Part shown: positions 18,270 to 21,099 of the stretch, piece after piece
Layout: each line of letters begins with the position of its first letter
Numbering within the stretch: position 1 is the first letter of the stretch
Assembly: GCF_029267515.1 (NCBI RefSeq)
Contig: NZ_JAJUIS010000001.1
Coordinates: 248,001 to 312,000 of the forward strand
Length of the DNA: 64,000 nt
Direction: 5' to 3'
Source: Seleniivibrio woodruffii
GTDB lineage: Bacteria; Chrysiogenota; Deferribacteres; Deferribacterales; Geovibrionaceae
Translations under genes and position numbers: made by a program
Notes under the pieces: model-generated
Database searches by the model: none
Told to the model about the DNA's origin: nothing
What the model saw: only the letters and a program-made list of their open reading frames with translations

Positions 18270-19580
18270 TTAGCAGCTTCCTGATTCCACGTATTCAACT
18301 ATCTTTTCTTTGATGGTCTTAACAGTCTGCTCAAACTTTTCAACGTTCTTTTCAAGCAGTGTCATACGGAAACCGGGTATTGATGTAAAGAAAGATGTCA
18401 GCGGAACCACACAGATACCTGTTGCCCCGAGCAGATAATAAACGAAGCGTTTGTCGTGGCTCATCTTGTCCTCGCACATCTTGTCAACGATATCCCTTAC
18501 CTCTTTTATTGGGATATGCAGTTTCTGGTTCTTGTTCAGCACCGCTTCATTGAAGACCACAGACATGTAGAACGCGCCGTTTGAACGGTTCACAACTATG
18601 TAGGGACAGTCTTTTAGCATATTGTATGCTATGTTGGACAGTTTTTCATAGTGTTTGAGCCTTTCATTCAGGTAAGTCGTGTACATGGCATGGTTCATTA
18701 TGTGAGGAATTGACATTTGCGGAAGCGTTGTTGAGCATACTTCAGCCATTTTCTGGTTCAGAATGGCGTTTACGAATCTGGAGAAGGCTTCGTCCTTGTC
18801 AGCGTTGTAAACTTCCATCCAGCCGCAGCGTGCGCCAGGCCAGGGGAACTCTTTTGATATACCCTTCATGGCTATACCGGGAACGTCGCCGATTATGTCT
18901 GAAAGAGCGATGGTCTTTTTGCCGTTGTAAACCATGTTGAGGTAAATTTCGTCAAAAATGAGCATAAGGTCGTGTTCTTTCGCCATATTCACGATTCTCC
19001 GCAGGTCGTCTTCCGTGTGGACGTAGCCTGTGGGGTTGTCCGGATTAATGACCAGAATACCAACTATGGACTTGTGGCTCTCAACTTTTTTCTCAAGCTC
19101 GTTAAGATCCGGTGCCCAGTTGTTATAGGGGTTCATTCTGTATGTGTTAGGCGGAAATGATGCGTGTAAAACTTCCGCCAGAAGGTGTGTTGAGTAGGTC
19201 GGCTCAGGCAGCATCACCCTTGCATCAACCCTGATTGAGCTATACGCTCGTGCTATTGCGTCGCCAAGTCCGTTGAAAAAAATGATATCGTCTTTTGTAA
19301 TCTGCACGCCGCCTCTGGCGTTTGTGCGCTCCGCGAGAAACTCGCGAACGTCATAGTCGCCTTTTGTGGGGCAGTAGGCAAAGGTCATGTTGTTGCTTTT
19401 AACGAGATCCGCGATGGTTTCTTTCATCCAGTCGGGGATAATCTCGCCTTTTGCCACTGGGTCGCCGATGTTTTCATAACAGATCTCGACGCCGTGCTGC
19501 TCAAGCAGTTTAGCAACGTTGACAATATTGCGGATTTCATAGGTCAGGCCGTTTCCGCTTTTGGCCAGATCGTAACGCAT
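18270..19580 (-). CDS. pyridoxal-phosphate-dependent class I/II aminotransferase
   Basis: The 436-residue fold-type I aminotransferase probably moves an amino group between an amino acid and a 2-oxo acid in the cytoplasm. Expected residues are visible: NPDNPTG (Asn182), FDEIY (Asp210, Tyr213), the Schiff-base Lys243 in KGISKEF and Arg251 in GARCGW. It resembles alanine/aspartate-type enzymes (AlaA-like), but the substrate cannot be fixed from sequence. The ATG at 19578-19580 has an AAGGTG Shine-Dalgarno (plus-strand CACCTT at 19585-19590) that can pair with an upstream CACCT, suggesting translational control by its leader. Confidence 0.9.
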   Translation of the reverse strand: MRYDLAKSGNGLTYEIRNIVNVAKLLEQHGVEICYENIGDPVAKGEIIPDWMKETIADLVKSNNMTFAYCPTKGDYDVREFLAERTNARGGVQITKDDIIFFNGLGDAIARAYSSIRVDARVMLPEPTYSTHLLAEVLHASFPPNTYRMNPYNNWAPDLNELEKKVESHKSIVGILVINPDNPTGYVHTEDDLRRIVNMAKEHDLMLIFDEIYLNMVYNGKKTIALSDIIGDVPGIAMKGISKEFPWPGARCGWMEVYNADKDEAFSRFVNAILNQKMAEVCSTTLPQMSIPHIMNHAMYTTYLNERLKHYEKLSNIAYNMLKDCPYIVVNRSNGAFYMSVVFNEAVLNKNQKLHIPIKEVRDIVDKMCEDKMSHDKRFVYYLLGATGICVVPLTSFFTSIPGFRMTLLEKNVEKFEQTVKTIKEKIVEYVESGSC

Positions 19581-19648
19581 ATAACACCTTCGGTTTTTAT
19601 TAGGTGGTCTCCCACCCGACGACTCTTTAAGTTGCGACGCAAAAAGAG
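19581..19648 (-). promoter_or_regulatory. structured 5' leader with alternative Shine-Dalgarno pairing, candidate riboswitch or translational switch
   Basis: On the minus strand the leader has a 10-bp hairpin with a 3-base bulge (plus positions 19623-19648), then GGTGG-GAGA-CCACC (plus 19603-19616), then the Shine-Dalgarno AAGGTG (plus 19585-19590). The CCACCT arm can pair either with the upstream GGTGG or with AGGTG of the ribosome site, so the two folds exclude each other. I could not match it to a riboswitch class I know. Confidence 0.5.
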
Positions 19649-19665
19649 CTGGTTTCTGATAATGT

Positions 19666-19702
19666 AAACCGCAAAACCCGTTGTTTTCGGATTTTGCGGT
19701 TT
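19666..19702. terminator. intrinsic terminator downstream of der
   Basis: AAACCGCAAAA (19666-19676) is fully complementary to TTTTGCGGTTT (19692-19702), with a further CCG/CGG pair inside. The A/T-rich arm supplies the U-tract. It separates der (minus strand) from the leader of the aminotransferase gene. Confidence 0.65.
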
Positions 19703-19758
19703 TCCTTATTAATACAAGTTATCGGAGATTACCAGAACAAAATGAAGATACGTTAACT

Positions 19759-21099
19759 TTAATATTCGGAAATGGGTGTATTTCTGGATTCGCCCCGTTG
19801 GCGGAAGTGTATTTTGATGGGCACTCCGTCAAATCCGTGGTGAGCGCGGATGATGTTAACAATGAAGCGCTGATATGAAAAATGCACAGCATCAGGGTAG
19901 TTTACGAAGACCACAAACTCAGGAGGACAGGTGGAAACCTGAGTGATGAAGTAGAATTTCACCCTTCTGTTGCGTGTTACGGGGGGCTGGTGGCGCTGAA
20001 CCGCTTCTTCAAGAACTTCCTGAAGTTTATGAGTGGAAATACGTTTGCTGTATTCCTTATAAAGCTCTTTTGCGGCTTCGAATACCTTGAAGATATTTTT
20101 TCCTGTTAGCGTAGAGGTATAAATCAGCGAAGGTTTGTTGAGAAACTGAAGATGATGGTCTATATCCTTGTGAAAGTCCTTAGCCTTTTCGTCTTTGTTT
20201 TCAATAAGATCCCACTTGTTCGCAACCAGTATAACGGGTCTGCCCGCTTCCCAGTTGTCTGCTATGACCTTTACGTCCCTGTCGGTAAGCCCTTCATTGC
20301 TGTCTATGATACAAACGGCGATATCTGCGCGGGAAACGGCGTCTTCCCATCGGTGATATCCGTATTTCTCTATCTTGTCCTTGAACATTATCTTCTTTTT
20401 GCGGATACCGGCAGTGTCTATGAGGACGTATTTCTGGTCTTCGTACTCAAAGAAGGTATCCACAGCGTCGCGTGTTGTTCCGGGGATGGGGGTAACGATG
20501 AGCCTGTCCTGTCCAAGCCATTTGTTTATCATGCTGGATTTGCCCACGTTGGGTCGTCCTGTGACGATGAGCTTAATCCTGCCTTCGTAAGGGTCGGTTT
20601 TGTCGCTGTCTTCGGGTATCTGCTCAACTATCCTGTCGAGCAACTCGTCAACGTTTCGCCCGTGGGTTGCGCTGATACCTATGATATCTTCCACGCCGAG
20701 ACGGTAAAAATCATAAGTAAGCGTTTCCTTTGCATCGCTGTCAACTTTATTGACGACAACCTGATAAGGCTTGCCCGTCTGGCGGAGCAGGTCGATCACA
20801 ATTTCATCCAGAGGGTGCACGCCCTCCTGTCCGTCGGTCATAAGGATGAAGTAGTCAGCCTCGCGCAGGTTGTTCATGAACTGTGCCTGCATCTCTTTTT
20901 TCAGCAGTTCTTCCTTGAGGTCGAATCCTGCAGTGTCAACAATGTTGAACCTGTGTCCGTTCCAGTCGGTGACAAATTCTATTCTGTCGCGGGTAACACC
21001 CGGCATGTCGTCAACGATGGCGATTTTCTTTCCTGCCAGTCTGTTGAAAAGTGTGGATTTGCCCACGTTGGGGCGTCCTATTATTCCTATGGTAAACAT
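19759..21099 (-). CDS. der: ribosome biogenesis GTPase Der (EngA)
   Basis: Der is a tandem-GTPase needed for 50S subunit assembly. The 446-residue protein has two G domains, each with a P-loop (GRPNVGKST near residues 8-16, and GRPNVGKSS in the second), DTAG boxes and NKVD/NKWD specificity motifs, plus the C-terminal KH-like domain. The upstream lipoprotein stop and this ATG share one base (TAATG at 21097-21101), with GAGG upstream, so translation is coupled to the argH-lipoprotein unit. A long plus-strand open frame across this gene is an antisense shadow. Confidence 0.96.
   Translation of the reverse strand: MFTIGIIGRPNVGKSTLFNRLAGKKIAIVDDMPGVTRDRIEFVTDWNGHRFNIVDTAGFDLKEELLKKEMQAQFMNNLREADYFILMTDGQEGVHPLDEIVIDLLRQTGKPYQVVVNKVDSDAKETLTYDFYRLGVEDIIGISATHGRNVDELLDRIVEQIPEDSDKTDPYEGRIKLIVTGRPNVGKSSMINKWLGQDRLIVTPIPGTTRDAVDTFFEYEDQKYVLIDTAGIRKKKIMFKDKIEKYGYHRWEDAVSRADIAVCIIDSNEGLTDRDVKVIADNWEAGRPVILVANKWDLIENKDEKAKDFHKDIDHHLQFLNKPSLIYTSTLTGKNIFKVFEAAKELYKEYSKRISTHKLQEVLEEAVQRHQPPVTRNRRVKFYFITQVSTCPPEFVVFVNYPDAVHFSYQRFIVNIIRAHHGFDGVPIKIHFRQRGESRNTPISEY

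Follow-up and report, generated by a model that had tools for sequence, protein, structure and literature searches.

The mRNA of a PLP-dependent aminotransferase in Seleniivibrio woodruffii and its relatives carries two short sequences, one in the leader and one in the coding region, that are single copy, co-occurring, and complementary, and that comparison among genomes indicates to be strongly constrained beyond protein coding. We propose that they make up a bipartite cis-acting element in which a leader loop pairs with coding sequence about 370 nt away, an account to which we give somewhat less than an even chance. The locus lies in a 64,000-nucleotide stretch of DNA that was analyzed as a whole (here called the window), and its features are listed in Table 1. 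In a preliminary description, the leader had been put forward as a translational riboswitch. Both hairpins and the Shine-Dalgarno (SD) sequence were found at the minus-strand places given there, and the sequence facts were right. On the comparative evidence, however, constraint is strongest at two places, the apex of hairpin 1 and a coding segment that lies beyond the interval described there.

Table 1. Features of the aminotransferase locus, in positions of the window
Feature	Position	Strand	Remarks
Promoter-like block CTGGTAATCTCCGATAACTTGTATTAATAAGG	19704..19735	minus	alike by eye in 8 leaders
Terminator-like hairpin, 13 bp	19668..19700	minus	G000, G003, and G004 only
Hairpin 1	19623..19648	minus	lower stem CTCTTT/AAAGAG, upper stem TTGC/GCAA
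Invariant 15-mer TTTTTGCGTCGCAAC	19631..19645	minus	single copy; 8/8 genomes of two genera
Leader TTGCGTCGC	19634..19642	minus	proposed partner of coding-sequence GCGACGCAA
Hairpin 2, GGTGG-GAGA-CCACC (19616-19603)	19602..19617	minus	stem drawable in 8/8 leaders, with changing sequence
Shine-Dalgarno AAGGTG	19585..19590	minus	AGGTG in 8/8 leaders
PLP-dependent aminotransferase	18270..19580	minus	NCBIfam PRK06855 type, AlaA-like, 436 aa
Coding element, codons 103-116	19234..19274	minus	synonymous sites frozen in the same 8 genomes
Coding-sequence GCGACGCAA	19256..19264	minus	exact reverse complement of leader TTGCGTCGC
Potential small hairpin in coding element, GAGC-GTATA-GCTC	19237..19249	minus	predicted probability context-dependent

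The protein was assigned to its type with an NCBIfam score of 701 bits (cut-off, 443), and by sequence it is closest, among solved structures, to a putative transaminase and AlaA. The gene der lies upstream on the same strand, while the downstream gene is on the opposite strand. A protein search of 59 genomes returned 41 close orthologs; the remaining matches were distant aminotransferases and were left out. We compared the leaders of all 41 orthologs by reading up to 240 nt of each. The eight genomes that bear the element belong to two genera within a single family (g1, with G000 to G004, and g4, with G007, G009, and G011) and are of the Seleniivibrio or Denitrovibrio type. In a tree of the 41 ortholog proteins, these eight species formed one clade with a support of 1.0, so the element, by this phylogeny, arose or survived once. 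One clade represents one evolutionary origin, and this counts against our best explanation.

Hairpin 1 consists of 10 bp with a 3-nt bulge (CTT) and a GTC triloop. Its 15-mer, TTTTTGCGTCGCAAC, was invariant upstream of the aminotransferase in all eight genomes, 50 to 67 nt before the start codon, and was found with none of the 33 other orthologs. When one mismatch was allowed, it still occurred once per genome in the eight and not at all in four other family members. The 12-mer TTTGCGTCGCAA was likewise absent from the genomes of the 33 other orthologs; it was present in five distant genomes and, in G003, at one additional place. Along the alignment of the hairpin, 15 invariant columns are followed by two variable ones and then by an invariant AAA. 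Of 119 fourfold-degenerate sites in the gene, only 14 are the same in all of these genomes, and by this yardstick the invariance of hairpin 1 reflects strong constraint. Furthermore, columns 30 to 32, which pair with columns 13 to 15, are invariant while columns 28 and 29 vary, a pattern that fits a bulged hairpin and not a symmetric DNA palindrome.

Covariation among homologous leaders had been suggested as a check on the leader structure, and the support that it lends to hairpin 1 is weak. On the favorable side, two pairs in the lower stem show double changes. The shuffle statistics, however, were weak: the double-change pair count was reached in 167 of 500 column shuffles and the covariation score in 41 of 500. 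When flanks were swapped among leaders, native combinations were better than swapped ones with P = 0.048 for all eight, 0.053 without a near-copy, and 0.083 in two subsets of four. Sliding the register by +3 gave a covariation of 0.168 (versus 0.114), yet paired 63.8% of cells (versus 93.8%). The RNAalifold covariation term for the hairpin was +0.12, which is not favorable.

Across the whole genome collection, TTTTTGCGTCGCAAC occurred in 36 stretches. Five of these were in Deferribacterota, all upstream of the aminotransferase; the other 31 were in other groups, where about 150 nt was read around each. Repeated long hairpins, GTTCRTTTTTTCTTTTTGCGTCGCAACAAAAAGAAAAAATGAAY, with an apex identical to that of hairpin 1 were seen in Gastranaerophilales metagenome-assembled genomes (L078, L079, L082, L090, L091, L096, L099, L104, L105, and L107), and these represent either a repeat family unrelated to the element or a sign of shared recognition. 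We also considered a leader peptide beginning TTG CGT CGC AAC and rejected it: its length and sequence diverge at once, no SD precedes it (read by hand), and in G001 the frame continues in frame into the aminotransferase gene.

The second constrained sequence reads AAC GGA CTT GGC GAC GCA ATA GC[A/G] CGA GCG TAT AGC TCA AT, and 40 of its 41 positions are invariant in exactly the eight genomes that carry TTTTTGCGTCGCAAC. Codons 103 to 116 vary in the 33 other orthologs, with the peptide largely kept. The best 13-column window of the gene had a mean codon identity of 0.971, compared with 0.68 overall and with a maximum of 0.923 in 5,000 permutations. For control genes, we took 80 to 100 kb around the gene from the seven other genomes and compared it with the open reading frames of the window; 10 of the 50 frames, including the aminotransferase, had orthologs in all eight genomes by our cut-offs. 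Among the nine controls, the best window scored 0.827 and no invariant run was longer than 11 nt, versus 23 nt in the aminotransferase. Of 50 genomes from the phylum, 8 had a 35-nt core of the element, with up to three mismatches allowed, and each time it lay in the aminotransferase. Its left 20-mer had two other matches (three mismatches each) and its right 17-mer had three (two mismatches each), and neither the leader nor the coding element had a second exact copy.

The two sequences are linked by complementarity. Leader TTGCGTCGC, which sits 5′ of the SD, and coding-sequence GCGACGCAA form an exact 9-nt complement, and a match of this length arose in 0.14% of 200,000 shuffles of the 41-mer (P = 0.0014). 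In each of the eight genomes, the leader-coding duplex was the strongest among about 375 coding windows. Conserved, complementary segments thus lie far apart on one mRNA, with both sides invariant in the eight genomes and with distances of 374, 369, 374, 374, 375, 375, 376, and 359 nt between them. The invariance of both partners means that covariation cannot test this pairing itself. In addition, 9 nt of pairing is insufficient to explain all 41 frozen positions, and the accessibility of GCGACGCAA was average.

We folded the leader together with a further 420 nt using RNAfold. Leader-coding pairing was preferred in only two of the eight species (G001 and G009). The coding element instead paired with the coding start in G000, in G003, and, partly and in another register, in G007, while other folds were preferred in G002, G004, and G011. 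Ranked among about 375 windows, the pairing of the coding element with the SD/start region came out at 0, 17, 36, 0, and 20 in G000 to G004 and at 8, 25, and 10 in G007, G009, and G011, compared with 26 to 342 in the 33 other orthologs. In G000 and G003, this pairing can extend to about 13 bp (19574-19587 with 19250-19262, minus strand). Minimum-energy folding leaves the real pairing undecided between the leader-coding and coding-start alternatives.

In the bipartite element that we propose, the first part would be hairpin 1, whose apical strand UUGCGUCGC would be either self-closed (UUGC/GCAA) or paired with the second part. The second part would be the segment of codons 103 to 116, in which GCGACGCAA lies beside a possible small hairpin. 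Pairing between them would comprise 9 bp, seven of which would form a G/C-rich block around the loop, and it would close a loop of about 370 nt enclosing hairpin 2, the SD, and the start codon. Such a closed loop may adjust how translation starts or how the mRNA decays. The pairing would be melted by ribosomes passing codon 106, which would provide feedback from translation. We infer that the pairing forms in the cell and that it affects translation, as we do the sign of that effect and any ligand or protein that may set the balance. A further proposal, which we think rather doubtful, is a two-part RNA switch specific to this clade. The coding strand about 310 nt into the gene would then alternate between the leader loop, with the ribosome site left open, and the region of ribosome binding and start. 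If this were true, the message would read its own translation state.

The main rival holds that the two sequences are operators of one transcription factor, about 370 bp apart, which represses by DNA looping. In the lac system, looping between operators brings about repression, and an auxiliary operator lies inside coding sequence; here too, a second site would lie inside a gene, a few hundred base pairs from the first. The leader site, TTGCGTCGCAA, is a perfect DNA palindrome (TTGCG-T-CGCAA) just downstream of the promoter-like block, the site in the gene (TGGCG-A-CGCAA) differs from it at 1 of 11 positions, and two copies of one palindrome would give the same 9-nt complementarity. Overall, the counts of further sites argue against a regulon: over 12 genomes, TTTGCGNCGCAA with up to one mismatch had 546 matches versus 533 for the reversed control, and of its 14 exact matches (control, 8), 8 were at the aminotransferase gene. 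G004 alone had an excess of one-mismatch copies (87 versus 28 for the reversed control), and these were scattered. The absence of a second exact copy of either element also speaks against the operators, as do the 41 frozen positions, which exceed an 11-bp site. Unlike what would be expected of a lac-type auxiliary operator, which acts at the DNA level, conservation is asymmetric about the center of the palindrome, matching the bulged RNA stem, and the spacing between the sites is variable (359 to 376), does not follow helical-turn steps, and puts two species about half a turn out of phase. Neither a regulon nor symmetric conservation with a steady helical phase was found, and we consider paired operators unlikely. 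Nevertheless, given the palindrome and its near-copy, a pair of operators is a serious rival, and the factor that binds them may be a protein with this gene as its single target.

It is also conceivable, but to us improbable, that a protein or a trans-acting small RNA binds the mRNA separately at the leader hairpin and at the coding segment, with no pairing between the two. Long, contiguous invariant stretches are what recognition by such a partner would call for. The genome has a gene for CsrA, and AACGGA, with which the coding element opens, contains ACGGA, which we take to be a CsrA-like core. Hairpin 1, on the other hand, has no GGA, and a search of 12 genomes for the full-length coding 20-mer and its complement gave, apart from the gene, only two matches, with three mismatches each. 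Separate sites would also turn the exact leader-coding complementarity into a coincidence, at the P value given above.

The riboswitch reading, in which the SD is sequestered by the 3′ arm of hairpin 2 and ligand binding is hypothetical, now appears very improbable. As had been described, this arm is able to pair with the SD in the window (CACCU:AGGUG, 5 bp), and three congeners have CGCCU or UGCCU versions. Furthermore, the SD is predicted to be partly paired, with other partners included, in all eight leader excerpts (mean unpaired probability, 0.06 to 0.55). Yet the exchange that would hide or free the ribosome site is not conserved. At least five contiguous pairs can form in only four of the eight leaders, three of which need G-U wobbles: the strict pairing, with five Watson-Crick pairs, was found in one leader (G000), and G002, G003, and G004 reach five to six pairs with wobbles, whereas G001, G007, G009, and G011 have just 2 to 3 bp. 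Forcing the pairing cost 1.0 to 7.6 kcal/mol in the seven of eight leaders where it could be forced. A conserved, mutually exclusive helix that sequesters the SD was thus not found in the eight leaders, and the leader is very short for a ligand pocket. The preliminary description had not recognized the class, and Rfam did not supply one. With Rfam 15 at gathering thresholds, there were no matches across the 64-kb window. Permissive searches gave only sub-threshold matches to unrelated families, at E values up to 10 (19540-19760) or up to 5 (19150-19700), and T-boxes were absent from the matches at E values up to 10 (19540-19760). What stands of the earlier proposal is a leader that is conserved, probably structured, and outside known Rfam classes; its anti-SD switch is not conserved.

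A stretch of 151 nt around the leader hairpins, which also takes in the separate 13-bp hairpin (19700-19668), folded with a z score of −2.70, and 1 of 200 shuffles was equally good. When the window leader was taken alone, the folding P value was 0.12 in the hairpin-2 interval, 0.068 in the leader excerpt reaching to the SD, and 0.21 in the one that continues through codon 4. Combined over the eight leaders, the corresponding Fisher P values were 2.4e-5, 2.9e-5, and 0.015, which are optimistic, given the kinship of the species and the fact that three of the leaders are near-copies; for the hairpin-2 interval, single leaders ranged from 0.008 to 0.19. Between hairpin 1 and the SD, the stems that can be drawn are GGUGG/CCACC, GGC/GCC, CGGAGGC/GCCUCCG, GGCGG/CCGCC (twice), CGGG/CCCG, GGGG/CCCC, and CUAA/UUAG. 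On a MAFFT alignment, RNAalifold recovered hairpin 1 alone and not hairpin 2. We regard a hairpin between hairpin 1 and the SD as plausible. By its rules, a sigma-70 scan found neither a promoter nor a terminator at this leader. The terminator-like hairpin, which has a poor T-tract, lies between the promoter-like block and hairpin 1, and its loop is changed among the three leaders that have it. Meanwhile, the leaders of a sister genus (f1g3; L009, L010, and L012) have another hairpin, ACCCG-TAAAA-CGGGT, 3′ of a promoter-like block, and they come without the leader or coding element.

Overlapping reading frames were examined as a source of the frozen codons and rejected. In all eight genomes, stops interrupt the coding element in the two other sense frames and in one antisense frame. 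A second antisense frame is open but aligns wobble with wobble and therefore cannot freeze the element. The third, of 13 codons (19235-19276, plus strand, TTG...TGA/TAA), coincides almost exactly with the element, and stops bound it at both edges in seven of the eight genomes and at one edge in G009. That it is a gene is barely credible, because no SD-like sequence was seen by eye 5′ of the TTG, only 12 residues follow the start, a valine/alanine change lies within it (read by hand), and the leader element would be left unexplained.

A separate observation concerns relatives that we take to be of a Mucispirillum-like genus (G023 and L022 to L030). Upstream of the aminotransferase ortholog of G023 (L030, 969-1519) are three tandem units of about 166 nt, and related units occur in L022 to L029. 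Within the units, a copy of the SD and of the gene's opening codons (RADFA) is followed by an early stop. In L030, the ATG is kept in two of the three upstream copies and lost in the first, and there are altered copies in L023 and L028 as well. RNAs that bind CsrA are expected to have hairpins with GGA in the loop. On the antisense strand of the repeat region, 26 such hairpins with changing stems were found in eight of nine loci, compared with 5 in four of nine loci when the sense strand was scanned in the same way; csrA was present in all five genomes tested. A transcript of the antisense strand would be a candidate, predicted from sequence, for a CsrA-titrating RNA in Mucispirillum-like bacteria. 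The repeat region matched no Rfam family at the gathering score (a plant-virus element came closest, below threshold, with an E value of 0.051), and the literature listed for Mucispirillum with CsrA concerned mouse infection models.

Long-range pairing within an mRNA has precedents, and the element described here is new in its details. In icaR mRNA of Staphylococcus aureus, the 3′ untranslated region pairs with the 5′ untranslated region at the SD region and creates a substrate for RNase III (PMC3868564). The element proposed here would likewise bring a distant segment of the mRNA into pairing with its own leader, with an effect on translation initiation; it would differ in its partner, which lies within the coding sequence, and in using, on the leader side, a hairpin loop located 5′ of the SD. 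The bL20 operator of Escherichia coli rpmI-rplT mRNA is a long-range pseudoknot that mimics rRNA and is recognized in this way by a ribosomal protein (PMC10931766). It resembles our proposal as a long-range bacterial mRNA pairing that controls translation in competition with the ribosome, whereas the gene considered here encodes a metabolic enzyme, and mimicry was compared through Rfam only. Among the matches listed for Deferribacter riboswitches or a Denitrovibrio aminotransferase, there was no report on this leader.

Searches for cis-regulatory RNAs in bacteria are commonly restricted to leaders. The leader element at this locus seems meaningful only together with a segment deep in the coding sequence that is constrained at synonymous sites, and scans of leaders alone or of the Rfam style miss such arrangements. 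Leader invariance, a synonymous freeze in the coding sequence, and complementarity between the two together make a simple comparative test, which could reveal more elements of this type. In this case, it turns a little-studied enzyme of a little-studied phylum into a tractable model.
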